This document shows positions 6,967 through 47,160 of a DNA stretch of 64,000 nucleotides, one piece after another; the first letter of the stretch is position 1, and each line of letters opens with the position of its first letter. Where the stretch lies: contig NZ_AUHD01000008.1 in the NCBI RefSeq assembly GCF_000423005.1, positions 62,001 to 126,000 on the forward strand. The letters are read 5' to 3'. Origin of the DNA: Gelidibacter mesophilus DSM 14095. Lineage in GTDB: Bacteria > Bacteroidota > Bacteroidia > Flavobacteriales > Flavobacteriaceae. The notes under the pieces were generated by a model, which saw nothing but the letters and a program-made list of their open reading frames with translations, did not search any database and was not told the DNA's origin. A program made the translations under genes and the position numbers.

Positions 6967-7040
6967 TCCTCTTTAGCTCAGTTGGTTAGAGCATCTGACT
7001 GTTAATCAGAGGGTCCTTGGTTCGAGCCCAAGAAGAGGAG
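6967..7040 (+). tRNA. tRNA-Asn (GUU)
   Basis: A 74-nt cloverleaf. The acceptor stem is TCCTCTT (6,967-6,973) paired with AAGAGGA (7,033-7,039), with discriminator G at 7,040. The anticodon stem CTGAC/GTCAG-type arm holds the loop with GTT, giving asparagine. The T arm is CTTGG-TTCGAGC-CCAAG with the conserved T-loop A58 present. CCA is not encoded. Its 3' half is the left attachment site of the 39.75-kb element, so the functional 3' end is supplied by the element. Confidence 0.97.
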
Positions 7041-7041
7041 C
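6999..7041. repeat. Left attachment site (attL) in tRNA-Asn
   Basis: 43 bp from the anticodon loop to one base past the tRNA. It is repeated at 46,752-46,794 with a single mismatch (A at 7,025, G at 46,778). Overlap with a tRNA 3' end is the usual target of tyrosine integrases. Confidence 0.92.
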
Positions 7042-7051
7042 GTAGTGAGAC

Positions 7052-7087
7052 AAAGCCATTCAAAAAATTGAGTGGCTTTTGTTTTTT
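7052..7087 (+). terminator. Terminator at the left end of the element
   Basis: Inverted repeat AAAGCCATTCAA / TTGAGTGGCTTT (one G-U pair, 4-base A loop) followed by a T-rich tract. It lies just after the tRNA and can end its transcript; the same hairpin recurs at about 27,896-27,929. Confidence 0.6.
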
Positions 7088-7092
7088 ACACC

Positions 7093-7112
7093 TGTACAAC
7101 ATCTGTACAACA
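7093..7112. repeat. Paired TGTACAACA repeats, left end
   Basis: TGTACAACA at 7,093-7,101 and 7,104-7,112, an 11-bp period. The same pair occurs at 27,935-27,954 and at 46,616-46,635 next to the integrase. Position and spacing suggest arm-type integrase binding sites. Confidence 0.6.
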
Positions 7113-7610
7113 ATTTGTCTTCTTTTGTTTTCATTTATTCTTATCTTTAAGATGTGGAACGATTAGGTGAGATATTTGCAAGTTGGCTGTATCAAAGTAG
7201 AAGAGAGCTAAAACTGTTGTGGTTAAAGCACGGCGCTTTGACTACCAATAGACTTTCTTTCTTGATAATCTGCATTTTCGGCATCCTGCCGCTGACCTGT
7301 TATTTTTTAATTTCAAGTATCAATTACTTGATAACACAAATTGTAGCAAGCTACATTTTCGTTTCGCTACTATTCTGTTTGTCCTTATTGCTCGTGATTA
7401 CTTGGTTCAAGTCCGAGGAACTATGCAAAAAAAATATTCAGGGTTTTTCTTTTTTGCAGTTACCCCCATCCAGTATTGATACTGTTTTTTTTGGTTTTGA
7501 TGCTAATGATGTCGAGAATCTTCTTAGGTTGAGCAACGGACTGCCCGCTGAGCAAAAAATCGTCATCAGGGAAATCCCGGATCAAGTCAAAAACTTGTGG
7601 GATTTTAAGA

Positions 7611-8564
7611 TTATGCAAAAATTGTAGTGAGTCTATATAGGAAGAATTCTACGTTCCTGACACCCCTGAACTGTGCTCTAAATGCTTTTATCTTGGCATT
7701 GAAAGATTCTGCTGAGGCATTGGTGCTTCTGTTATCAAAGTAGTTCAATATGTTTTGATAATGGATGGACATTGTTCTGGATATGGTGCTGAAGCTTTTG
7801 AATGCCGCCTGTCTGACTTTTTCGTCCCATTTTGCCAATCTTATAAGCGCCGATGTTTTGTCCTTTGTATTGTTGAATATCCAAGATAGGTTCTGACATA
7901 GTTTATATGCTTTTTCCAGATCGGGATAACGTTCAAAAAGTATTGCTGCTCTTTTAGATTGATTTTCAGTCCATTTACTACTTGGTTTATACAGTAGATA
8001 TCTGCTTCTAGCCAATAATTGTTTGAGCGAATCTTCATTGGGCAATAACTCTGGCGTGTATTTTATAGATTTGCTTCTGGCATTTTCTATGGCGTCATTT
8101 TCAGTATCGAGCGCTTCCCATCTGTGCTTGATCCTGATTTCCTGCAGTGCCTCCAATACCAGTTTCTGAACGTGGAAACGATCTATGACCAAGGTGGCTT
8201 CCGGGAAGGACCTTCTAACGATTAGCCCCATGTTCCCTGCCATATCCAAAGTGACCTCCTTGACCGTTCGTCTTTGCTTTAAAGGGATCTGTTGCAGTAT
8301 CCTTATCACATCCTCTGCCTTGGTACCCTTGACCATGGCTACTATAGCGCCCTTCTTTCCCTTGGCTCCTTTATTGGTTACTATGGTGTAGAGTTCGCCG
8401 TTGGAAAAGGCAGTCTCGTCGATTGAAAGATAGCTTCCCAGATTTTTTGGAAACAGGAGCCATTGCTTGGCATGCCCCTTTTGGTCCCAGGTCTTAAAAT
8501 CGCTCAGATAATCTTTGTACTGTCTCTGCAGGCTTCTGGGACTTACGCCATAAAATTGTGCCAC
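7611..8564 (-). CDS. ISL3/ISAon1-type transposase
   Basis: 317-aa DDE transposase. It begins with a short helix-turn-helix-like YGVSPRSLQRQYKDYL. The first acidic residue is in YLSIDETAFSNG, the second in VTLDMAGNMGLIVRRSFPEATLVIDRFHVQKLV, and the final glutamate in STNASAESFNAKIKAFR, the order seen in ISL3 transposases. It catalyses cut-and-paste movement of its IS. In this subgroup an upstream N-region protein is normally encoded in another frame; here that gene has a stop codon, so activity of the copy is doubtful although this frame is complete. Confidence 0.9.
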   Translation of the reverse strand: MAQFYGVSPRSLQRQYKDYLSDFKTWDQKGHAKQWLLFPKNLGSYLSIDETAFSNGELYTIVTNKGAKGKKGAIVAMVKGTKAEDVIRILQQIPLKQRRTVKEVTLDMAGNMGLIVRRSFPEATLVIDRFHVQKLVLEALQEIRIKHRWEALDTENDAIENARSKSIKYTPELLPNEDSLKQLLARSRYLLYKPSSKWTENQSKRAAILFERYPDLEKAYKLCQNLSWIFNNTKDKTSALIRLAKWDEKVRQAAFKSFSTISRTMSIHYQNILNYFDNRSTNASAESFNAKIKAFRAQFRGVRNVEFFLYRLTTIFA

Positions 8565-8943: not shown

Positions 8944-9366
8944 AGAAATTTTTGTTCCAAAGGTCTTTTATTTCTAGTTACTCCACAACTTTTTGTATTG
9001 ACCCGAAATCCCAAAGAACAAACAAACCGGAAACATTCGTTTTTTATTTACTTTTCTGGATCTCATTGTTCGCGGTGGCATCTTTCGGATGGACACAAAG
9101 CCCAAGGAGTCCTTGAACATGCTTATCTCAGAGCGTTTCACATTTCAAAATTCCGAAATCAACTCAAGTACACTTCTCTCAAGTTATTCCAAATGGTGCT
9201 CCGCTACCCATGAAGGCAGTTACGATGACGTGCGAAAGGACGTCTCAAAAGCCTTAGGTATTACCTAACATTTACACAACTCCCCTTCTTATAAAGAAAA
9301 CTTAGAACAATCTTAAAGCAATCGTGATTTCCCTTTTGTTTTTACTGCATCTATCGTCATATGTTT

Positions 9367-9396
9367 GCCCTGTACAATCAAAGTAAAGGGCTTTTT
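9367..9396 (+). terminator. Conserved small hairpin upstream of the HTH gene, copy A
   Basis: GCCCT (9,367-9,371) and AGGGC (9,387-9,391) followed by a T run. The same hairpin occurs at 28,775-28,803 in copy B; it likely ends transcription of the left-end membrane protein gene. Confidence 0.4.
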
Positions 9397-9426
9397 ACTC
9401 ATTATTAATTCTTAAATATAAAGATT

Positions 9427-9472
9427 ATGAATGAGCAAGAAAACGTTGTGGATTTGTTGCAGGATATCAAAG
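9427..9472 (+). pseudogene. 5' stub of the element HTH gene (copy A)
   Basis: Starts exactly like the intact HTH gene at 28,835 (MNEQE, then LLQDIK) and matches it for about 46 bp, then the homology stops at 9,472 and sequence belonging to the glycan locus begins. This marks the junction between the first left end and the polysaccharide utilisation locus. The remaining frame would run into unrelated sequence. Confidence 0.8.
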
Positions 9473-26903: not shown

Positions 26904-27895
26904 GAGAAGATACTTATACCTATGAAATTTTAGTATACCATGATCAGCTTCTGGACGTAATAAACTTTATTTCAAATTCACAAGATCAAACATTGGTAAT
27001 ACATCACATGGTTATGCCCGGTCTAAAAATTAATTATAACTCAGTACGATATAAGGATTTATCAAAAAAAAGCTAATTGCGTTGTGTTTTCGGATTCAAC
27101 CTTAATACTAAGTTTTTTCTTGAAACGAATAAGCAATTAGACTTGCGACTAAATTTATAATAAAGTTGCCAAAACTTTTATTTCTGGAATGTTCAACTTG
27201 GCCTATTTTCTTTAATTGGTAATTAATGTTTTCTATAACCGAGTATTTTCTGAACAAAATTTTATCCCTTATGGTCATCAATATATTTTCATGTTATACG
27301 TGATATCGGTTACCATGCGCTGTCTCTGGTCGAACAACAGGGCTGTAAGTTGCTTCTTCTATAATGTAGGGTCAAACAATAGATAAAATCATCTTTGAAA
27401 CAAAAAATATCAGTAATTTTATTTTTAGAGATCTTAAGCGAAAAGTTATATAATGCGCTGGATTTTTTGTGTTTAATGTATTAAGAATTATGCTTTTTCT
27501 ATACTAAAAAATTACTTTTCTTACGTCCAACTCAGGTAAATAACAACAATAGTCCATTCATAAATAATTAGATGTTAATAACAAAAAAAGAAACTAAAAA
27601 GAGGAGAAATATAATCAAAAAACTGATGAGTACCCAAAAGATGGTATATTTTGAACTATCATCTTCTAAGTGTTTGCTTTAGAAAAGCTTATAGTCTTCC
27701 ATCGATCCAATAAGCTTGAATGTATAGAAACCAACAGAATTTCGCACTTTTCAGCGAAGAGAGAGGTAAACGTGACATAACCGTAATTTAAATACTGTTT
27801 ACTGATGCTAATTTAGAAAGAACAGTTTAAAAACTTGATTTAAAATGATTAAGGAGTTGTAACCCAACCCAGGTGAGACCACACCAGTAAACACA
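26904..27895. other. Gene-poor junction between glycan locus and second left end
   Basis: About 1 kb with no convincing gene. It holds a short open tail just after the fucosidase (to a stop near 27,076, ending ...RYKDLSKKS), an IS982-type transposase relic (27,108-27,310, minus strand) and AT-rich sequence from 27,311 in which I see nothing identifiable. The second left end begins with its hairpin at about 27,896. Confidence 0.5.
27108..27310 (-). pseudogene. IS982 family transposase C-terminal relic
   Basis: Minus-strand reading gives ILMTIRDKILFRKYSVIENI, then QLKKIGQVEHSRNKSFGNF and LVASLIAYSFQEKT before TAG at 27,110-27,108. The order RxSVIExxNxQLKxIxQxEHSR and INLxAxLIAYxFQ is the C-terminal signature of IS982 transposases. 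The upstream part is broken by stops and no inverted repeats were found, so this is a dead fragment. Confidence 0.65.
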
Positions 27896-27929
27896 AGCCA
27901 TTCAAGAAATTGAGTGGCTTTTGTTTTTT
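27896..27929 (+). terminator. Left-end hairpin, second copy
   Basis: AAGCCATTCAA / TTGAGTGGCTT with a T-rich tail, nearly the same as the hairpin at 7,052-7,087 next to attL. Homology to the element left end starts here; no att core precedes it. Confidence 0.55.
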
Positions 27930-27934
27930 ACACC

Positions 27935-27954
27935 TGTACAACATCTGTACAACA
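27935..27954. repeat. Paired TGTACAACA repeats, internal left end
   Basis: TGTACAACA at 27,935-27,943 and 27,946-27,954, same 11-bp period and flanks as the pair at 7,093-7,112. Confidence 0.6.
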
Positions 27955-27995
27955 ATTTGTCTTCTTTTGTTTTCATTTATTCTTATCTTTAAAGT

Positions 27996-28676
27996 ATGGA
28001 ACGATTAGGGGAGATATTTGCCACTTGGTTGTATCAAAGTAGAAGGGAACTGAAACTATTATGGTTAAAGCATGGCACTTTAACTACCAACAAACTTTCT
28101 TTCTTGGTAATCTGCATTTTCGGCATCCTGCCGCTGACCTGTTATTTTTTAATTTCAAGTATCAATTACTCGATAGCACAAATTGTAGCAAGCTACATTT
28201 TCGTTTCGCTATTATTCTGTTTGTCCTTATTGCTTGTGATTACTTGGTTCAAGTCCGAGGAACTATTTAAGAATAATGTTCAGGGTTTTTCTTTCTTGCT
28301 GTTGTCCCCGTCCAGAATCGATACCGTCTTTTTTGGTTTTGACAGTAAGGATGTAGAAAACCTTCTTCGGTTGATAAATGGTTTACCTGCTGAGCAAAAG
28401 ATTGTCATCAGGGAAACCCCTAAGAACAAACAGACCGGAAACATTCGGTTTTTATTTACTTTTTTGGATCTCATTGTTCGTGGTGGCATCTTTAGGATGG
28501 ATACGAAACCCAAGGAGGCATTAAATATGCTTATCTCCGAACGTTTTACCTTTCAAAATTCCGAAATCAACTCAGGTACACTGCCTTCAAGTTACTCCAA
28601 ATGGTGCGCTGCTACCCATGATGGTACTTATGATGACGTGCGAAAGGACGTCTCAAAAGCCTTAGGTATTACTTAA
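27996..28676 (+). CDS. Conserved left-end membrane protein of unknown function (intact copy B)
   Basis: 226 aa; family not recognised. A basic amphipathic N-terminus (residues 1-32) is followed by two membrane segments (about 34-52 and 63-84) and a soluble C-terminal domain with TKPKEALNML and a conserved tail KWCAATHDGTYDDVRKDVSKALGIT. A nearly identical gene at 7,154, split by an IS, occupies the same place in the first left end. Always sitting between the terminal repeats and the HTH gene, it looks like a backbone gene of this element family rather than cargo. A role in transfer or element maintenance is inference. Confidence 0.7.
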   Translation: MERLGEIFATWLYQSRRELKLLWLKHGTLTTNKLSFLVICIFGILPLTCYFLISSINYSIAQIVASYIFVSLLFCLSLLLVITWFKSEELFKNNVQGFSFLLLSPSRIDTVFFGFDSKDVENLLRLINGLPAEQKIVIRETPKNKQTGNIRFLFTFLDLIVRGGIFRMDTKPKEALNMLISERFTFQNSEINSGTLPSSYSKWCAATHDGTYDDVRKDVSKALGIT

Positions 28677-28774
28677 CATTTACACAACTCCACTTTTTAT
28701 AAAGAAAACTTAGGGCAATCTTAAAGCAATCGTTATTTCCCTATTGTTTTTACTGCATCTATCGTCATATGTTT

Positions 28775-28803
28775 GCCCTGTACAATCAAAGTAAAGGGCC
28801 TTT
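28775..28803 (+). terminator. Conserved small hairpin upstream of the HTH gene, copy B
   Basis: GCCCT (28,775-28,779) with AGGGC (28,795-28,799), then CTTTT. Same position and loop as the hairpin at 9,367-9,396. Confidence 0.4.
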
Positions 28804-28834
28804 TACTCATTATTAATTCTTAAATAAAAAGATT

Positions 28835-29143
28835 ATGAATGAGCAAGAACATGTTGTGGAATTGTTGCAGGATATCAAAGGGCTGCTTTCCCACACAAAA
28901 AAAGTATACAACATCGATGACCTTGTCAGATATACAGGATTATCCAAAAGCAAGATCTACAAACTCTCGCAGTTAAAATTGATACCGGCGGGGAAGAACA
29001 GGCATGTACGGCAGCTTTTCTTTAACAAGGAAAAAATCGACGCCTGGCTTCTGGGAGAACCCAATCTATCGGACGAATTTCTGGAACAGCGGTTCAATGA
29101 ACAATTGCTGAACCATAAAAAATCCGGATCATGGAAGACTTGA
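28835..29143 (+). CDS. Excisionase-type helix-turn-helix protein
   Basis: 102-aa DNA-binding protein. The winged-helix/MerR-like HTH of the excisionase family is visible at about residues 22-70 (YNIDDLVRYTGLSKSKIYKLSQLKLIPAGKNRHVRQLFFNKEKIDAWL). Such proteins in Bacteroidota elements act in excision or regulate the adjoining replication genes. It overlaps the helicase gene start by 13 bp, so they are co-translated. A 46-bp stub of the same gene survives at 9,427. Confidence 0.85.
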   Translation: MNEQEHVVELLQDIKGLLSHTKKVYNIDDLVRYTGLSKSKIYKLSQLKLIPAGKNRHVRQLFFNKEKIDAWLLGEPNLSDEFLEQRFNEQLLNHKKSGSWKT

Positions 29144-30327
29144 CATACATACGGGTTGGCACCGCCTACTATAAATTGGTATATGTCCCAACTATCAGCG
29201 GAAAGTTCAACGAAACTCTTGTGCCCTGGAACATGGAAACCATCCGGCAAGATCATGGAAGGAACTTTATCGGAACGATCAAAAGATATGATGGATTTAC
29301 CTGCATTCCCAGCCACTTAAACTTTGTAAGGGAATGGCACGGATTTTATAATACCTATTCGCCCTTGCCCCATCAACCAAAAGAAGGGGAGTTTCCTTAC
29401 ACCTTAAAACTATTGGAACATATTTTTGGTGGACAGTTGAACTTGGGCCTAGATTATTTGCAGCTTTTATTTGAGCGTCCGATTCAGGTCCTGCCTATTC
29501 TCTGTTTGGTGTCCAAAGAGCGTTCTACGGGCAAGACCACCTTCCTAAAATGGCTCAAAATGTTTTTCGACAATAACATGACCTATTTGACCAACGACAG
29601 CTTCAGCAGCCAGTTCAATGCCGATTGGGCGAACAAGCTCCTGATCTGCATTGACGAGGTGCTTTTCAACAAAGAAGAACTCACCGAACGCATCAAATAC
29701 TTGAGCACGACCAATTTCAATAAGGTAGAAGCCAAAGGGAAGGATAAAAGGGAGATAGAATTTTTTGGGAAGTTCATTCTCTGCAGCAACAATGAGGACA
29801 ACTTTATAAAGATCGACAGTAACGAGACCCGTTTTTGGGTATTGAAGATCCCATCGCTTAAAAAGGAGGACACAAGGTTTTTAGACTATCTGGATGCAGA
29901 GTTGCCGGAATTCCTACATCACTTGCAACAGAGGGAACTCACCAGTCCACAATTGACCCGCATGTGGTTCACGCCAGCACAGATCAGGACCCAAGCTTTG
30001 GAAAATTTAATGTCCAACAACAGAAACCGCGTGGAAAAGGAATTAGCCAGCATTATTCTTAATGCCATGGACACCTTGGAGGAGCAAGCGATACAATTAT
30101 GCCCATTGGATGCCCTTAACCTATTAAATCGGACCCGGATCAGGACAGATCTTACCCAGTTGCGGCATATCTTAAAAAAGGACTGGAAATTGACCAATCA
30201 GGATAATTCCATGGGCTATAAAAAATTAATGATCTGGCAGGAGGGCGGAATGGGGTTTACCGATGCTAAAGGAAGGTATTATTCAATAGAAAAAGATTTT
30301 TTATTAAAACGCTTTGGAGAGGATTAG
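29131..30327 (+). CDS. Primase-helicase family protein (DUF5906-like, SF3-type ATPase)
   Basis: 398 aa. The Walker A region is KERSTGKTTFLKWLKMFF near residues 130-147; a Walker B-like strand LLICIDEVLFNKEEL follows at about 171-185, and the sensor-1 asparagine lies in KFILCSNNEDNFIKI. This matches the virus/plasmid primase-helicase group. It probably unwinds the excised circular form during replication. It overlaps the HTH gene and is followed by an iteron-bearing spacer and the primase. Confidence 0.85.
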   Translation: MEDLTYIRVGTAYYKLVYVPTISGKFNETLVPWNMETIRQDHGRNFIGTIKRYDGFTCIPSHLNFVREWHGFYNTYSPLPHQPKEGEFPYTLKLLEHIFGGQLNLGLDYLQLLFERPIQVLPILCLVSKERSTGKTTFLKWLKMFFDNNMTYLTNDSFSSQFNADWANKLLICIDEVLFNKEELTERIKYLSTTNFNKVEAKGKDKREIEFFGKFILCSNNEDNFIKIDSNETRFWVLKIPSLKKEDTRFLDYLDAELPEFLHHLQQRELTSPQLTRMWFTPAQIRTQALENLMSNNRNRVEKELASIILNAMDTLEEQAIQLCPLDALNLLNRTRIRTDLTQLRHILKKDWKLTNQDNSMGYKKLMIWQEGGMGFTDAKGRYYSIEKDFLLKRFGED

Positions 30328-30592
30328 AAAAAATGATATCGTGATTCGATGACAAGGGACTCCAATGTTTGTGGGTGATAGAAACAGTTTTCATCATTTT
30401 CGACAGTATGTGCCGATGTAGAGAGAAAACACCTTGCATATTATGTTTTATTTTGATGAAACGATGACAGATAGTGATTAAGCCCAGTAAATATAAGGGA
30501 TTAGGTTGTCATCGTTTTGTCATCATTTTGTCATCAAAAAAAAACTAAGCTTTAAATGGGTTGTAAATACTGGGTTTAAAACAAACTGGCTG
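30328..30592. promoter_or_regulatory. Candidate replication origin or oriT region with iteron-like repeats
   Basis: A 265-bp gap in an otherwise packed operon. It contains three head-to-tail 11-bp repeats TTGTCATC[G/A]TT (30,506-30,516, 30,517-30,527, 30,528-30,538; the last ends AAA) and two inverted copies of the core (GATGACAA at 30,348-30,355; AACGATGACAG at 30,460-30,470). Position between helicase and primase genes suits an origin; oriT is an alternative. Confidence 0.5.
30506..30538. repeat. Three tandem 11-bp iterons
   Basis: TTGTCATCGTT, TTGTCATCATT, TTGTCATCAAA in perfect 11-bp phase, roughly one helical turn each, immediately upstream of the primase gene. Confidence 0.7.
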
Positions 30593-31447
30593 ATGAAAAG
30601 AAAAATAAACTGTGAAAGAGCCCGAGCTTTTCCCATCGGAAGGGCGCTGGCAAAACTCGGGCACTTTCCCCAAAAGACAGCGGAAAAAGAAGCTTGGTTT
30701 CTGAGTCCTTTCAGGTCAGAAACCCAAGCCTCTTTTAAAGTTTCCAAAACCAGCAACCGATGGTATGACCATGGCGAAGGGAGTGGAGGCAATGTGATTG
30801 ATTTGGTCTTTAGGATTTTGAAATGTCCTGTGAAGGAAGCTCTGGCGTATTTGAATCAAGATTGGCCTTCTTTTTCTTTTCATCAGCAACCAGATTTTAG
30901 TCAAAATCAAACAGGAATCAGCATTACCAAAATACAGGACATCATCCATCCCGCACTGATCCAGTATTTGAACCTGAGAGGGATTCCATTACCTATTGCG
31001 AAGGTCTATTGCCATGAAGTGTGGTACAGTTTTAAGAACTCTAAGTTTTTTACGATTGGGTTACGGAACGACAACGGTGGATGGGAATTGCGCAATAGGA
31101 TTTTCAAGAATGGATGTAGCCCTAAATCCTATACCTATCTCCGAAACAACAATAAGCAGCTGATCGTTTTGGAAGGGATGTTTGATTTGTTATCGCTGGC
31201 CGTCTTAAACGAAAATTTGATAAAGGTTTCAGATGTTTTGGTTTTGAATTCCGTTGCGTTTGTCAAAGATGTTGAAGTGCATTTTTCAAACTATGAAGTG
31301 ATTGGTCTCTATTTAGATCATGATGAAGCAGGAAGAAATATCACCCTTTATTTAACAAATAAATATCGCCATGTCCTGGATAAAAGTGATGGTTATAAAA
31401 ACCATAAGGATTTAAACGATTTTTTGTGCCATGAGAGAAAAGGATGA
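30593..31447 (+). CDS. Toprim-domain DNA primase of the mobile element
   Basis: 284 aa from the ATG at 30,593. A longer frame from 30,506 is rejected because its first codons are just the iterons. The N-terminal part resembles the CHC2 primase zinc-ribbon fold but without its cysteines (WFLSPFRSETQASFKVSKTSNRWYDHGEGSGGNVIDLVFR). The Toprim part shows LIVLEGMFDLLSLAV (glutamate), then LYLDHDEAGRNIT (DxD). It would prime replication of the excised element. It overlaps mobC by 17 bp. Confidence 0.85.
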   Translation: MKRKINCERARAFPIGRALAKLGHFPQKTAEKEAWFLSPFRSETQASFKVSKTSNRWYDHGEGSGGNVIDLVFRILKCPVKEALAYLNQDWPSFSFHQQPDFSQNQTGISITKIQDIIHPALIQYLNLRGIPLPIAKVYCHEVWYSFKNSKFFTIGLRNDNGGWELRNRIFKNGCSPKSYTYLRNNNKQLIVLEGMFDLLSLAVLNENLIKVSDVLVLNSVAFVKDVEVHFSNYEVIGLYLDHDEAGRNITLYLTNKYRHVLDKSDGYKNHKDLNDFLCHERKG

Positions 31448-31940
31448 GATTGAACGAAAAAGGGAGCAGCAGTATCTAAAGATTCCTGCCCATTTGCTCA
31501 AACATTCTGAAAGTGTGGAATTGGATCTGGAAGAGGATGCCAATGGAATGGAAATTATTCTGGGTAGGAATTCGAGATGTGTGTCTGTGGCCACATTCTC
31601 GTTTGCTCCCGAAGGTCGCAAAGAAAAAAAACGGGTGTTTAAGGGGAAAAGTGATCTGGTCAAGTTCAGATGTTCCATCTACGAAAAGAAGCTCTTGACA
31701 ATTAAGGCATCGTCTTCAGGATTGAGCCTAAGCGAGTATATCCGGCGTGCCGTATTCGATAAGGAAATTACGGAACGTTTTAGCGAGGAACACATCAAAC
31801 TTTATAAAATGATGATCAAATACCATAATAATTTTAAGGCTATTGGGAACATGTACAGAAAACGGAATCCCAAACTGACCGAATCGGTATATGCCCTGGC
31901 CAATGAAATCAAGGCACATCTCAAAAAATTTCAATCATGA
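31431..31940 (+). CDS. mobC: MobC-like relaxosome accessory protein
   Basis: 169 aa. The central segment VKFRCSIYEKKLLTIKASSSGLSLSEYIRRAVFDKEI (about 83-120) is a ribbon-helix-helix pattern of MobC proteins, which bind oriT and help the relaxase. The N-terminal 80 residues are charged and element-specific. It overlaps the primase upstream and shares an ATGA start/stop overlap with the relaxase, a classic mob operon arrangement. Confidence 0.85.
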   Translation: MREKDEIERKREQQYLKIPAHLLKHSESVELDLEEDANGMEIILGRNSRCVSVATFSFAPEGRKEKKRVFKGKSDLVKFRCSIYEKKLLTIKASSSGLSLSEYIRRAVFDKEITERFSEEHIKLYKMMIKYHNNFKAIGNMYRKRNPKLTESVYALANEIKAHLKKFQS

Positions 31941-32794
31941 TAGGAAAGGGCAAAAGCATATCACACACCCGGGCATCGATGGCCTATGGCTGGAACCAGG
32001 AAAAGGATGCCGAGATCGTGCTCAAGGAATTTTTGCATGGCGATTCCCCAGCGGAAATCACCAGAGAATTCAAAATGATCCAGGATCTTAATCATAACTG
32101 TACCAAGAACACCCTGTCCTTTATCCTGAGCCCCACAATAGATGATGGCAGAAAACTGGATAAAAGCAAACTGCAGGATATTGCCAAACGGTTCATCCAC
32201 GAGATGAAACTCGGCGAGCGTCAGGCCATCGCCTTTGTGCATAAGGACAAAGAACATAAGCACATCCATTTATATGTCAACCGTATTAATTTTAGGGGCG
32301 TCGCCTACAATGACAGTTTTATAGGGAAACGGAGCCAGTTGGCGGCAGAAAAAGTCGCCGAAAAGATGGGGCTTACCACCGTCAAACAGGTGCAATTTGA
32401 AAAGGAATTGAACCTAAAGGAAATCCGCACCGAGATCAAGCGCAGACATGACCTTACCATGACCCAGTTTAAACCGAAATCCTTTGATGCCTACATAAAA
32501 GATATGGAAACCAATGGCGTAAAAGTGATCCCAACCATAAATAAGCAAAACAATCTACAAGGCTTTCGGTTTCAGTTTGATGGGCACAATTTAAAGGGTA
32601 GTGAAGTCCACCGCAACATGTCCATAGGCAATATCGGCAAACAAATGGGCGGTATTGAAATAGCCAAGAATTTAAAGAATAATACGGTGGGAGTGAAGTT
32701 TGCTGGAAACACGGTAGGATTGGCGCCCAAACTGGCATTCAAACTGACCAAATTCTTAATCAAGAAAACCATACAACAGGGACTGTCCTATTAA
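31937..32794 (+). CDS. Relaxase / mobilisation nuclease
   Basis: 285-aa MobA/VirD2-type relaxase. The metal-binding histidine triad is visible as KEHKHIHLYVNRINFRG near 112-128, and an early serine/threonine/tyrosine-rich block (SISHTRASMAYGWN) lies near the N-terminus. It would nick oriT and pilot the strand into a recipient using another element's conjugation apparatus. Length is short but ordinary for Bacteroidota mobilisable elements. The gene follows mobC with a 4-bp overlap. Confidence 0.9.
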   Translation: MIGKGKSISHTRASMAYGWNQEKDAEIVLKEFLHGDSPAEITREFKMIQDLNHNCTKNTLSFILSPTIDDGRKLDKSKLQDIAKRFIHEMKLGERQAIAFVHKDKEHKHIHLYVNRINFRGVAYNDSFIGKRSQLAAEKVAEKMGLTTVKQVQFEKELNLKEIRTEIKRRHDLTMTQFKPKSFDAYIKDMETNGVKVIPTINKQNNLQGFRFQFDGHNLKGSEVHRNMSIGNIGKQMGGIEIAKNLKNNTVGVKFAGNTVGLAPKLAFKLTKFLIKKTIQQGLSY

Positions 32795-32805
32795 ATAAAA
32801 CGATC

Positions 32806-33129
32806 ATGACAAAACTTGAAGAATTTACCGCGCTTTTGGTCAATGAGACCACCGACTTTAAAAACAGCTTGGAAAAGTTGGAGAAACTTAATGAGCAATT
32901 AAAAGAGACAAAAATTAAGATGGACATTATGGAATATAAAACGCTTATCCAATCCCATCAAGAGCAATTGATCTCCAACATTAAAGCGATTGAGCGTTTT
33001 GAAAATCATTTTAACACTACAATTAAGCAGGCCAAAATTTATCCAAATTGGGCGGTGGTGGTGTTTATGGTGAGTTTGGTTCTGGGAGGTGGGGCGGTGG
33101 TGTTTTTGGTGATAAGTTATTTAAGGTAA
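32806..33129 (+). CDS. Small coiled-coil membrane protein of the mob operon
   Basis: 107 aa, family not recognised. Residues about 5-75 are a heptad-like charged helix (LEKLEKLNEQLKETKIKMDIME), and residues 82-104 are one membrane segment ending ISYLR. It starts 11 bp after the relaxase, so it belongs to the mobilisation operon; similarly placed small membrane proteins often accompany relaxases, though the role is unknown. Confidence 0.7.
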   Translation: MTKLEEFTALLVNETTDFKNSLEKLEKLNEQLKETKIKMDIMEYKTLIQSHQEQLISNIKAIERFENHFNTTIKQAKIYPNWAVVVFMVSLVLGGGAVVFLVISYLR

Positions 33130-33164
33130 TATATTTATTTTTAAAATGTGTACTTATTTTAAAT

Positions 33165-33189
33165 AAAAAAGTCCCACCGAAGCAGGACT
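33165..33189 (-). terminator. Rho-independent terminator of the tracrRNA-like gene
   Basis: 8-bp stem (two wobble pairs) with a TTCG tetraloop and a T6 tail on the minus strand. Confidence 0.75.
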
Positions 33190-33250
33190 AAAGATTTTCA
33201 TCTACGGCATATAGCCTTATTGTGATAAGATTAAAGATTAGAAGTTTTAA
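33165..33250 (-). ncRNA. Type II-C tracrRNA-like gene
   Basis: Minus-strand reading gives an anti-repeat ending CTTATCACAAT, then the nexus AAGGCTATATGCC (GGC/GCC stem), a small AGAT-GAAA-ATCT hairpin, and a terminator AGTCCTGC-TTCG-GTGGGACT followed by six T. This order (anti-repeat, AAGGC nexus, hairpin, UUCG-capped terminator) is that of type II tracrRNAs. A promoter fits immediately upstream. Pairing rules predict a cognate CRISPR repeat beginning GTTGTGATAAG; no array with that repeat is seen. The gene is divergent from the Cas9 fragment that starts at 33,354. Confidence 0.7.
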
Positions 33251-33257
33251 TCTGATT

Positions 33258-33288
33258 CAAATATAGCAAAATATTTCAAATATAACAA
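33258..33288 (-). promoter_or_regulatory. Promoter of the tracrRNA-like gene
   Basis: On the minus strand TTG at 33,288-33,286, 20-bp spacer, TATATTTG at 33,265-33,258; a second TATATTTG lies at 33,284-33,277. Start of transcription near 33,250 gives an RNA of about 85 nt. Confidence 0.5.
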
Positions 33289-33353
33289 TGCGGATTCCCG
33301 CACGGTAGATTCAAGTTAATTTGTATCTTGAAACTGTTGAAAATTAAAACATC

Positions 33354-33890
33354 ATGGCAAAAATATTAGGATTGGATTTAGGGACTAACTCGATTGGATG
33401 GGCTATTGTGGAAAAGGAGAGAGATGAAAAAGAGTTTACGTTAATTGATAAAGGTGTAAGAATATTTTCCGAAGGTGTAAATCTGGAGCCTAAAACAAGT
33501 AGCGAAAGTTCAAAAGCAGCGCAGCGTACGGGTTATAGGAGCGGAAGAAAATTAAAATATAGAAGAAAATTAAGAAAACTTGAGCTTTTAAAGGTGCTGT
33601 CGGACAGTGTTTTATGTCCGATATTAACGGATGATGAGCTTAATCTTTGGCGCTATAAAAAAATATATCCTACAAATGATGATTTTAGATTGTGGTTAAG
33701 TACGGATAATCAAGATGATAAAATAGAGCGAAAGGAACAGAAGAAAAATCCTTACGTTTTTCGATTCAAGGCTTCAACACAAAAACTTGATTTAAACAAA
33801 ACAAGTGATAGACATGAATTAGGTAGAGCTTTATATCATTACAAGTTGCTCATTAGAGGTCGTGATAGAACATTTGTTTGTGAAGAATAG
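33354..33890 (+). pseudogene. cas9: N-terminal fragment of a type II-C Cas9
   Basis: 178-codon frame with the RuvC-I motif ILGLDLGTNSIGWAIVEKE (catalytic Asp at residue 8) and an arginine-rich bridge helix (AAQRTGYRSGRKLKYRRKLRKLELLKVL), then the start of the recognition lobe up to LGRALYH. Intact II-C Cas9 proteins continue IAQRRGF at that point; here a roughly 5-nt offset followed by GTTGCTCAT-TAG-AGG looks like a decayed version of that block, and the frame instead runs off to TAG at 33,890. HNH, RuvC-II and RuvC-III are absent. Full Cas9 is 1,000-1,500 aa. No cas1/cas2 nearby. Most likely a pseudogene, but the retained frame and tracrRNA leave open residual expression. Confidence 0.85.
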
Positions 33891-34201
33891 TGTTTTTTTT
33901 AGCATATTTAGTCATTAGGTTATGGTGGAATTCGCTAAGTAACAATGGGAGGGAACTTTAAATATATAAAATTCGGTTTGTAATATGCTGAAAACCTGTA
34001 AGATTTTTATGGCAACAGCTCAATCCTTTTGATGGTAAATCTAAAACATACTATCAAAACAGGTCTTCTAATCCGAGTTTTCAAATTATAATTAATGTAA
34101 TTTTTCCATTTTATTAGTGAGTTTTAAAAAGAATAATCTATTTTTACCATTCGTGTAACGATAGACCCCATTATTTAGGGTCTATTGAAACGTAAAAGGT
34201 A
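33891..34201. other. Spacer after the Cas9 fragment
   Basis: About 310 bp. The first bases look like decayed Cas9 sequence. One frame near 33,988-34,110 reads KPVRFLWQQLNPFDGKSKTY without a start codon and is not recognised. The inverted repeat at 34,161-34,185 belongs to the abiE promoter. No CRISPR repeats are seen. Confidence 0.4.
34161..34185. promoter_or_regulatory. Inverted repeat operator upstream of abiEi
   Basis: ATAGACCC (34,161-34,168) and GGGTCTAT (34,178-34,185) form a perfect 8-bp inverted repeat with a 9-bp centre, ending 16 bp before the abiEi ATG. AbiEi proteins are known to repress their own promoter by binding inverted repeats. Confidence 0.55.
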
Positions 34202-35005
34202 ATGGCAAAAGGGACATACATATCAGAAAGTCTAAACGAAGATCAAATGGCTTTATTAAAGTATTTGGATGATTATGAACTCCTTTATTTTAATCTGAAG
34301 GACTTGACTTCACAATTGCCTAAACATCTAGCTAACAATATAAACGAGTTGGTAGAAAATTTATACCAAAAGGGCATGTTAAACCGTATAGAACGCGGCG
34401 TATATGCTAAGCCCAATTACAACAATATAAATGTACTGGCCACCTATATAAGCTCAAATAGTGCCATTGCCTATTGGACAGCGTTGCACTATCATGGTTT
34501 GACAGAACGTTTCCCTAACACCTTATTCCTTAAAACTACCCAACGAAAAAGAGATACACAAATATTGGGTTCTACTGTAAAATTTGTTACTGTAAAAGAA
34601 GACAAGAACATAGGAGTGATTCAGAAAGGGTATGGAGATGACAGTTTTAATATCACCGATATAGAAATGACCTTGGTTGATTGCTTTGACCAACCTCGTT
34701 ACGCTGGCGATTTTGCTGATGTCATAAAAGCGGTTGCTAATGCCAAGTTAACAAACAACAAATTAATAGCCTACACCAAGGCTTATGATAACATAGCGTT
34801 GACAAAACGTATGGGCTATTTGACAACATTATTTCATAATGATAAGTTGCAGAGTTTTATCAAGTATGCCAAAACACAAGTCAACCAAAAGTATAATTTA
34901 ATGGATGCCGGCGGATTGCAACAAGGAGAATTTATAAGTGAATGGAAACTGCGATTAAACACTAGCAAAGAAGATTTATTGCAAATGGCGCAAACCGAGT
35001 ATTAA
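34202..35005 (+). CDS. abiEi: AbiEi-type antitoxin / transcriptional regulator
   Basis: 267-aa cytosolic antitoxin. The N-terminal winged helix (about residues 15-75: LLKYLDDYELLYFNLKDLTSQLPKH ... LNRIERGVYAKP) binds DNA; the rest has the AbiEi C-terminal fold with YISSNSAIAYWTALHYHGLTE and EMTLVDCFDQPRYAG. It represses the operon and counters the AbiEii nucleotidyltransferase in a type IV toxin-antitoxin system. The stop codon abuts the ATG of abiEii. A perfect inverted repeat sits just upstream of the start. Confidence 0.92.
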   Translation: MAKGTYISESLNEDQMALLKYLDDYELLYFNLKDLTSQLPKHLANNINELVENLYQKGMLNRIERGVYAKPNYNNINVLATYISSNSAIAYWTALHYHGLTERFPNTLFLKTTQRKRDTQILGSTVKFVTVKEDKNIGVIQKGYGDDSFNITDIEMTLVDCFDQPRYAGDFADVIKAVANAKLTNNKLIAYTKAYDNIALTKRMGYLTTLFHNDKLQSFIKYAKTQVNQKYNLMDAGGLQQGEFISEWKLRLNTSKEDLLQMAQTEY

Positions 35006-35875
35006 ATGATTTTACAGAAAGAGATTATAGAAAAAGCCAAAGAGTGGAAAGTGCCACCTGATACTGTAGATAAAGATTATGTATTGGGGCATTTTCTATC
35101 GGCATTCATAGCACATTATAAAGATGAGTTGGTCTTTAAAGGTGGCACATGTTTGCGTAAATGTTACATTGAAAATTACCGATTTTCAGAAGACTTGGAT
35201 TTTACGGCTTTAGATAAAAATTTTGTGTTAGACCAAAAAACACTACAAAACATAGCTAAAACTACAGAGGAAAACACGGGCATTCTATTTCTTGTAGACA
35301 AAATAAAACCTCTGATGTTTCAGGATGAACCCAAAGGGTATCAAGTGTATATAAAATACTGGGGAGCCAACCATTCTAAAAACCAAAGGCCATTGCCTCC
35401 AAACCGTTGGCATACTAAAATAAAATTGGAAATCAGTACTGATGAAATAATGTTATTGGATACAGAGACATTAGATATTATGCATCCCTATTCTGACACC
35501 TTAATGGGCGAAAATCAAATTAGATGTTACAGCATTAATGAAGTGATTTCCGAAAAACTAAGGGCATTAAAACAACGCTCCTATACCGCACCAAGAGATT
35601 TTTACGACCTATATCATTTAACCCAAGAATTTTCAGAGGAAAATTGGAAAATGGTCATTCCTGTTTTTGTCAAAAAAATGATGCATAAAAAACTGGCATA
35701 TGAATCGCCTGATGATCTCATAGACGCTTCTAAAATAGCAAATGTAAAACGTGCGTGGAGCACCAGTGTAGCCCACCAAATTACAGAAGCCCATCAACCT
35801 AGTGCAGACGAAATAATAGAAATAATTGCAGAGCGTATTAAAACGTATCTACCTAATGATAAACCGCGAAAATAA
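35006..35875 (+). CDS. abiEii: AbiEii/AbiGii family nucleotidyltransferase toxin
   Basis: 289 aa. The nucleotidyltransferase motifs are LVFKGGTCLRKCY (GG[S/T]-type loop, about residues 42-54) and FSEDLDFTAL (DxD metal site, about 61-70), followed by the C-terminal part with EVISEKLRALKQRSYTAPRDFYDLYHL. AbiEii/MenT-type toxins add nucleotides to tRNA acceptor ends and stop growth, acting in phage abortive infection and element stabilisation. It immediately follows abiEi. On this mobile element it may serve as an addiction and anti-phage module. Confidence 0.92.
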   Translation: MILQKEIIEKAKEWKVPPDTVDKDYVLGHFLSAFIAHYKDELVFKGGTCLRKCYIENYRFSEDLDFTALDKNFVLDQKTLQNIAKTTEENTGILFLVDKIKPLMFQDEPKGYQVYIKYWGANHSKNQRPLPPNRWHTKIKLEISTDEIMLLDTETLDIMHPYSDTLMGENQIRCYSINEVISEKLRALKQRSYTAPRDFYDLYHLTQEFSEENWKMVIPVFVKKMMHKKLAYESPDDLIDASKIANVKRAWSTSVAHQITEAHQPSADEIIEIIAERIKTYLPNDKPRK

Positions 35876-45390: not shown

Positions 45391-46599
45391 TCAAACCAAT
45401 ATTTCAATCGCATCATCTAAAACGGAATTGTCAAACTCTTTGAGATAAGCTTGCGTGACAGCAAGATTTTGATGACCCATAGATTCACTGATTATATCGG
45501 TAGCGACTCCTTTTTGTTTTAAACAGTTTGCAAAACTATGTCTAGCGACATAACTGCTCAAGGGTTTATTGATTTCACATATTTCCGCAATCTCTTTTAA
45601 TTCCTTGTTGTAACGTTGAAGGGTTTTATGTTTTCTATTCTCTAGCTGTGATGGGGTTAAGCTGTTTTTCAAAAGAATTGAAAATACGTAATTAGTACCT
45701 GTTGATAACTGTTTGTAATAGCTCAGTATCTCTTGAACAGGGAGAACAATCTTAATTTTAAAATGTCCTTTTGTTTTGGATCTCGTATAATAGATGTTGT
45801 CGAAGTCAGTGTCTTTCCATTCAAGCTTCATCATGTCGGCAAAATTCATACCTCTAGTATAAAAACTGAAGATAAAATAGTTTCGGGAATTAATAAACGA
45901 TGGATATTTATTTAAGTCCAGATCTCTAATTTTTAGGACTTCCTCTATTGATAAAGCCTTTTTTAGGTTTTTACCTTTAAGTTTTGAGACCTTATATATC
46001 TTCAAGGGATAATCCTGTTCTTTCACAATGTTTCTTTCAATGGCGAAGTTGTATAGCGCTCTAATTGTCCTCATCCGCACACCTATGCCTCCATCACTTC
46101 CGCCTCGCGACCTTAAAAAAGCCTCATATTTATATAAAAAAGAAGGAGTAACTTCTGTAAAGTTAAGTCTGGTACTCTTATTGAATTTTTTTAAAGATTC
46201 AAAAGTATCTTTATTTACTTTTGCATTTCCTGTTCTTCCTGCGTAGATCATTTCGCCAATAATCTCATCCCAGAAATAAAAAACATTTTGCTGTACGGGA
46301 TTAGATACAATTCTAAAACGATTCTCAAAGTCTCGCAAGGTGAAATCACTCTTTTCCATTTCGAGTTCTGAAAGGATTTTTAAAGCTCTGTCCTTAAATT
46401 TTAGAAGTAACCTGTTATTCTGGGTGCTATTTGAATTCTTAGTTGTGAAACTACCCGTTGTTTGGTTCCATTCATTCGGAAAAGATCTGAATATCGTTTG
46501 AAAAAATTTCGAATGTCTATCTTTAGATACCCTCAAAGAGATGGGGTAACTGCCATCAGCGAGCTTTGTTTTTCTTAATACGGTTTTTACGGTTGCCAT
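45391..46599 (-). CDS. int: Tyrosine site-specific integrase
   Basis: 402-aa recombinase of the Bacteroidota IntDOT-like group. The N-terminal arm-binding domain (about 1-90) and SAM-like core-binding domain (95-200) precede the catalytic domain: first arginine in FYTRGMNFADMMKLEW (near 248), ARHSFANCLKQ, GHQNLAVTQAYLKEF with the nucleophile tyrosine near 384. It faces inward from the right end; its start lies 16 bp from the paired GTACAACA repeats and about 150 bp from attR. It would integrate and excise the element at tRNA-Asn. Confidence 0.95.
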   Translation of the reverse strand: MATVKTVLRKTKLADGSYPISLRVSKDRHSKFFQTIFRSFPNEWNQTTGSFTTKNSNSTQNNRLLLKFKDRALKILSELEMEKSDFTLRDFENRFRIVSNPVQQNVFYFWDEIIGEMIYAGRTGNAKVNKDTFESLKKFNKSTRLNFTEVTPSFLYKYEAFLRSRGGSDGGIGVRMRTIRALYNFAIERNIVKEQDYPLKIYKVSKLKGKNLKKALSIEEVLKIRDLDLNKYPSFINSRNYFIFSFYTRGMNFADMMKLEWKDTDFDNIYYTRSKTKGHFKIKIVLPVQEILSYYKQLSTGTNYVFSILLKNSLTPSQLENRKHKTLQRYNKELKEIAEICEINKPLSSYVARHSFANCLKQKGVATDIISESMGHQNLAVTQAYLKEFDNSVLDDAIEILV

Positions 46600-46635: not shown

Positions 46636-46751
46636 AATTGCCTTTTAAAGGTAAATCAAATGAAAATAAAAACAAAACTAAAAACTATAAAATATTGATT
46701 ATCAGTTGATAAGAAGCCAAATATTGACAAATGAAAACTGAAATTAATTGT

Positions 46752-46794
46752 CTGTTAATCAGAGGGTCCTTGGTTCGGGCCCAAGAAGAGGAGC
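46752..46794. repeat. Right attachment site (attR), displaced tRNA-Asn 3' end
   Basis: 43-bp copy of the tRNA-Asn 3' half with one change (G at 46,778), which alters T-loop position A58. It lacks the 5' half, so it is not a tRNA gene. Confidence 0.92.
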
Positions 46795-46799
46795 AAACA

Positions 46800-46827
46800 A
46801 AGCCGTTACGAAAGTAGCGGCTTTTTT
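46800..46827 (+). terminator. Original tRNA-Asn terminator, displaced
   Basis: AAGCCGTTAC / GTAGCGGCTT (one wobble) with a GAAA loop and a T run, just past attR. It probably terminated tRNA-Asn before the element inserted. Confidence 0.6.
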
Positions 46828-47160
46828 GTTTCAAATACCTTTGGATTATGACGAATTAACACCCATCAAATTCCTTTTATAAACGTATAAAGAACCGCTC
46901 AAAGCAACATCACATCCTCATCTAATCTTATATCTTCAAATAATTAGCTGTTCTCATTTTTTTGATTAGTTGAGGCTGTGACAAAACCCCAAATGCAATC
47001 TATAGCTGCTTTATGACAATTTTTTGAATATTCCATTTGAGGTAAATCTAAAATAACGATCACTCAAATAGTGAATTAAAAAGTTATGGGATAAAATGGA
47101 GATTTCTCACTTTTACTATCGGGCACCTTCAGTGCATTGAAATTTTCAACCTTCGTTCTA
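46828..47160. other. Intergenic stretch after attR
   Basis: About 330 bp of chromosomal DNA between the displaced terminator and the AraC gene. I see no gene, repeat or RNA in it. Confidence 0.4.

Follow-up and report, generated by a model that had tools for sequence, protein, structure and literature searches.

We analysed a 64,000-nucleotide stretch of the Gelidibacter mesophilus DSM 14095 genome (hereafter the window, whose positions are used throughout) and identified a type II-C tracrRNA gene on its minus strand (33243-33165). Its anti-repeat, AAGGC nexus (GGC/GCC), GAAA hairpin and UUCG terminator are arranged as in related loci. A promoter -7 box of the Bacteroidetes type, TATATTTG, lies at 33265-33258 on the same strand. 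The consensus for this box is TAnnTTTG, and a 13-sequence alignment conserves the TTT in every sequence and the preceding A and the following G in 12 each. A covariance model built from 26 relatives, with the window left out, matches the gene at 107.3 bits (E 3.2e-18), which confirms an earlier note, made from the sequence alone, that described a complete-looking II-C tracrRNA here. Rfam returned nothing at its gathering score at this locus and gave weak sub-threshold hits only. The consensus structure has 15 pairs, four of which have changed on both sides, and the predicted fold of the window strand (-19.8 kcal/mol, z -2.6) pairs the 5' leader with the anti-repeat. A tracrRNA match was obtained in 47 of 62 loci examined and not in the other 15; the 79-nt core is identical in nine of the 47 (two of the nine, L002 and L040, are from one genome). 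Of 2475 first-look candidates in the genome, 150 were scored with the model, and the gene was the sole match at E values up to 1. With its promoter intact, the tracrRNA is probably still transcribed.

Facing the tracrRNA gene is a 178-codon open reading frame on the plus strand (33354-33890). Its first 162 codons (33354-33839) encode RuvC-I and the arginine-rich bridge helix of Cas9 and are 93.8% identical in protein sequence to the Cas9 of Gelidibacter salicanalis. The frame aligns with profile positions 2-117 of 1070 in the NCBIfam Cas9 family (TIGR01865) at 83.6 bits, which falls below the family cut-off of 100 bits. It has no Pfam match, and its top PDB matches are the N-termini of Cas9 proteins. 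The piece amounts to 162 of about 1435 residues, roughly the first ninth of Cas9. The parts of Cas9 beyond it are RuvC-II, RuvC-III, HNH, most of the recognition lobe and the PAM-interacting domain. The window locus thus lacks the full set of RuvC I-III, HNH, recognition lobe and PAM domain that makes up a whole effector and, because those parts are gone, a 178-aa protein, if made, should be unable to form a RuvC nuclease. No disabling change is seen in either the tracrRNA core or the cas9 piece.

Homology to Cas9 stops at codon 162 (33839). The 16 further codons and the stop (33840-33890, plus strand) are the reverse complement of the start of cas1, and by this alignment the tail is read as the end of the cas9 frame by chance. 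The earlier note had taken all 178 codons as Cas9, which holds for codons 1-162 and fails for the last 16. It had also read the residues after LGRALYH as a decayed IAQRRGF, favouring a relic; we reject that reading of the residues, which are antisense cas1, while the conclusion of a relic stands. The cas1 remnant itself runs from 33905 to 33838 on the minus strand and comprises the first 22 codons with two bases of the next. A tblastn search aligned Cas1 residues 1-23 to 33905-33837 on the minus strand at 95.65% identity; position 33837 belongs to cas9, and cas1 homology begins at 33838. The junction therefore lies at 33838-33839, where the dinucleotide AT is the only microhomology between the two breakpoints. 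Beyond the remnant, the region upstream of cas1 (33906-34104) can be aligned to G. salicanalis.

The nearest relative of the Cas9 piece is found in this congener, G. salicanalis IC162 (loci L031 and L040), which carries a homologous mobilizable element with a complete type II-C locus. The element genes run in the order 226-aa ORF, HTH protein, VapE-like helicase, primase, MbpA, MbpB relaxase and DUF6730, followed by the tracrRNA gene. After it come a 1435-aa Cas9, a ParDE-like pair, an array and then cas2 and cas1, both oriented convergently to cas9. The array has 39 exact 36-nt repeats and 38 spacers of 29-31 nt; against the window and the related loci, these spacers gave matches of 14-18 nt only, which we take as chance. 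The ParDE-like genes lie between cas9 and the array (L031 6406-6970), with ParE above its Pfam cut-off and ParD below, and ParE-like matches also occur near cas9 in L048 and L050-L054. The window shares the element genes with this locus, a tracrRNA identical over 89 nt, the first 162 residues of Cas9 and the start of cas1, but the G. salicanalis locus is complete, with full Cas9, ParDE-like pair, 39-repeat array, cas2 and cas1. Aligned identity is 84.8% over window positions 32001-33839, whereas 33838-34104 matches, at 83.6%, G. salicanalis DNA lying 8.25 kb further on. About 8,253 bp are missing from the window by this comparison.

These alignments indicate that the window locus is almost certainly a relic, left when a fairly recent deletion removed the middle of a type II-C CRISPR-Cas9 locus borne by a mobile element. 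An integrating, mobilizable element would have carried the locus as cargo, of which the window keeps the two ends. Illegitimate recombination at the 2-bp AT match would have deleted about 8.25 kb, presumably laid out as in G. salicanalis: all of cas9 after codon 162, the ParDE-like pair, the array, cas2 and everything in cas1 after codon 22. The same event, probably recent, would have placed the start of cas1, in antisense, directly after cas9 codon 162. The intact parent form on the G. salicanalis element supports the simplest reading of the earlier note, in which the element bore a II-C locus and this is its relic. Parent form and product can thus be viewed side by side, as an element-borne CRISPR-Cas9 locus that appears to have been lost in one step with leftovers.

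The earlier note had suggested looking for the same truncation in related elements; we found no break at cas9 codon 162 among 33 related loci, eight congeners and 298 other sampled genomes of the family. Thirty-two of the 33 loci read on through the xxQRRGF motif, and the remaining one (L054) ends at a contig edge at residue 138. Among the 32, the frames of L048 and L064 are broken further on, and L061 and L068 reach the contig end. Cas9 matches occur in 63 of 299 family genomes (own genome included), with a frame counted in this search as 180 codons for the window and at least 612 codons for the 62 others. Within the genus (nine genomes, own included), matches occur at five places in four genomes, and this break is in the window alone. 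A search of viral contigs, in which single-protein queries reach close relatives only, returned 22 pattern matches and no relative. Plasmids gave distant matches in five records, none reaching 80% query coverage.

Between the window and G. salicanalis, the cas9 piece has diverged by dN 0.034 and dS 0.418. Polarising the changes with seven other loci assigns six nonsynonymous and 13 synonymous changes to the window branch and five and 11 to the sister branch, with nine sites unpolarised. On the window branch, the nonsynonymous calls at codons 29 and 31, two of the six, are doubtful because both lineages changed there. The ratio of nonsynonymous to synonymous changes is about equal on both branches. 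These counts appear to show a sign of neither decay nor new constraint, presumably because the deletion is young relative to the split. The pattern would fit a young deletion and, equally, a fragment that is still constrained. Residue 86, which is Val in the window and Asn in the eight other sequences compared, may be a slight hint of relaxation. Synonymous divergence is uneven along the element (0.42 in the cas9 piece, 0.84 in the relaxase, saturated in VapE), which may reflect a mosaic history, with a deletion that could be older than the arrival of the element in this genome.

The rest of the genome (4.43 Mb, 55 contigs, rated 100% complete) holds no second cas9, as both a full-length Cas9 query and the Cas9 profile matched the window piece only. 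The general Cas1 family, tested twice, has no match in the genome. The repeat core of the G. salicanalis type is absent from both window and genome with up to three mismatches allowed. The earlier note had proposed searching the rest of the genome for a full cas9 and a CRISPR repeat, and neither turned up. Its statement that the locus has no array, cas2 or further part of Cas9 is correct: we found no repeat-spacer array and no further Cas9 part there, and no Cas2 match within the window. It had also stated that cas1 is absent, which overlooks the surviving start; of the cas1 and cas2 of a type II-C locus, these roughly 22 codons are what is present. As a positive control, the same genome-wide searches recovered both cas genes in G. 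salicanalis IC162. In control runs on 14 named genomes, the Cas1 search gave matches in ten in one run and nine in another, and the Cas9 profile gave matches in four, none of them over the cut-off; in the same run, the profile found Cas9 over the cut-off in G. salicanalis, G263 and G301. The window tracrRNA is probably left with neither a crRNA nor a Cas9 as partner.

Two other accounts of the locus have to be weighed against a deletion relic. The source genome is a draft, and two separate parts of an intact locus could have been wrongly joined in assembly. However, there is no repeat to mislead an assembler because the breakpoints share 2 bp only, and the missing cas9, cas1 and repeat have no match on the other contigs of a genome rated complete; we consider such an artefact exceedingly improbable. 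The other account accepts the deletion and holds that its product has been maintained. On this view, the orphan tracrRNA, either by itself or together with the RuvC-I/bridge-helix peptide, would sequester crRNAs, disturb or otherwise alter the related II-C Cas9 of cells that the element enters, or act in regulation; for instance, it might compete for crRNA or feed a Cas9 that has no tracrRNA of its own. All parts of the tracrRNA gene, from promoter box and anti-repeat through nexus and hairpin to terminator, are intact; its 79-nt core does not differ from that of intact relatives, and the 178-codon frame is open. This lack of any disabling change is unexpected for a long-dead relic. Against a retained role, the genome has no other Cas9, cas1 or matching repeat that our searches could find, no second example of the codon-162 break came to light, and the window branch carries no excess constraint. 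Moreover, an RNA with exactly the sequence found in intact relatives would be expected to serve their Cas9, not to obstruct it. On this balance, we regard maintenance for any of these functions as very unlikely. A perfect tracrRNA beside an open Cas9 N-terminal frame need not, then, amount to a functional module, although if a role were shown, it would represent a minimal tracrRNA-based modulator of Cas9.

Several known systems bear on these readings. A phage offers a precedent for a retained role, in that its RuvC-inactive Cas9 and phage tracrRNA are thought to sequester crRNAs (PMC11656645). Both cases place a tracrRNA and a Cas9-derived protein on a mobile element; the RuvC domain of the phage protein is described as inactivated, and the protein is believed to hold crRNA in stable complexes (PMC11656645), whereas the window piece, at 162 residues, would not be expected to hold a guide. 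Anti-CRISPRs that resemble Cas proteins are also on record: AcrIB3 is given as a Cas5 mimic, and AcrIB4 as Cas8b-like (PMC13131331). Racrs, RNA anti-CRISPRs that mimic repeats, resemble the window in that a mobile element bears one CRISPR RNA component by itself, as outlined in PMC10651486. They differ in that they are repeat mimics (PMC10651486), while the window RNA is a tracrRNA of exactly the sequence found in intact loci. An anti-CRISPR would also be expected to recur as the same module in several elements, and the loci and genomes sampled gave no further case. The Campylobacter integrative conjugative element CampyICE1 is described as bearing a degenerate type II-C system, with an inactivated cas9 copy reported in one genome (PMC8743540). 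Here too, a type II-C cas9 is cargo of an integrating, transferable element and optional in related elements, but CampyICE1, on that description, keeps a single Cas9 and as many as three short arrays (PMC8743540), in contrast to the Cas9 piece, tracrRNA and cas1 stub kept in the window. A keyword search for literature on mobilizable elements with Cas9 in Flavobacter found none.

The carrier element precedes the tracrRNA gene on the plus strand (27996-33129) and encodes the 226-aa ORF, HTH protein, VapE-like helicase, primase, MbpA, MbpB relaxase and DUF6730 in the same order as in G. salicanalis. The next cargo of the element is an AbiE-type pair (34202-35875, plus strand), of which AbiEii scores over its Pfam cut-off and AbiEi below cut-offs only. 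A 402-aa protein (45391-46599, minus strand) is presumably the element's tyrosine recombinase. The relaxase is also present in four other congeners, at two places each in G299 and G303 and at one each in G300 and G302; MbpA and DUF6730 adjoin it at all six. The CRISPR locus looks like an optional cargo of the element because none of these six places has a Cas9 match within the stretches fetched, which were longer for three of the six.

The window element resides in an island bounded on one side by a tRNA-Asn gene (6967-7041) and on the other, near 46749-46831, by a copy of the 3' part of that gene, whereas the G. salicanalis element adjoins a tRNA-Met gene. A further 22 kb of the own genome (L036 and L037) and the G. 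salicanalis stretch L032 entered the analysis for tRNA genes and for bulk comparisons only. The island has two left ends, at 7053 and 27895. It is composite, and the two ends are alike (89.5% over 7053-7578 and 91.2% over 9005-9472, the second copy lying at 27895-28880). An ORF that we take to be transposase-like (7611-8564) adjoins the first copy of the 226-aa gene, which is truncated. Just before the second left end, at about 27868-27882, the sequence CCCAGGTGAGACCAC resembles by eye the 3' end of a tRNA-Met, the tRNA-Met gene being the one that adjoins the homologous element in G. salicanalis. It is as if the window element had earlier resided in a tRNA-Met gene.

We also surveyed tracrRNAs elsewhere in the family and found matches at E 0.01 in 36 of 299 sampled genomes, 23 of them below 1e-6 over at least 59 of 89 tracrRNA bases. 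Four of the 23 (G121, G170, G263 and G264) lack a Cas9 N-terminus match. G263 has a Cas9 on a contig other than that of its tracrRNA, and the tracrRNAs of G170 and G264 lie less than 400 bases from a contig end. G121 is a one-contig genome with an orphan tracrRNA (L124 10667-10745) that scores 90.5 bits and is slightly degenerate, with one hairpin pair broken by eye; this genome has no Cas9 and no Cas1 match. Judging from these sequences, orphan tracrRNAs do arise, and G121, the other clear case, is further decayed. In G263, on a contig different from that of its cas genes (L094, about 1430-1583), two CRISPR repeats are seen by eye, and the second continues without a gap into a 3' part that resembles a tracrRNA, making a repeat-tracrRNA hybrid.

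Short N-terminal pieces of Cas9 likewise recur in the genus. G301 has two such frames, of 496 and 126 codons, which derive from other Cas9s and end at other breaks. On contig C37 of this genome (L129 6479-6844), about 63-73 N-terminal residues of Cas9 are in frame, by eye, with hydrophobic, membrane-like segments (121 aa). The adjoining gene (L129 6849-7595) encodes DUF6994, a family with a predicted HNH-like fold (PMC11701544). The two DUF6994 loci found among the 299 family genomes (L131 and L132) have no Cas9-fusion neighbour. The G301 frame is perhaps another fusion relic.
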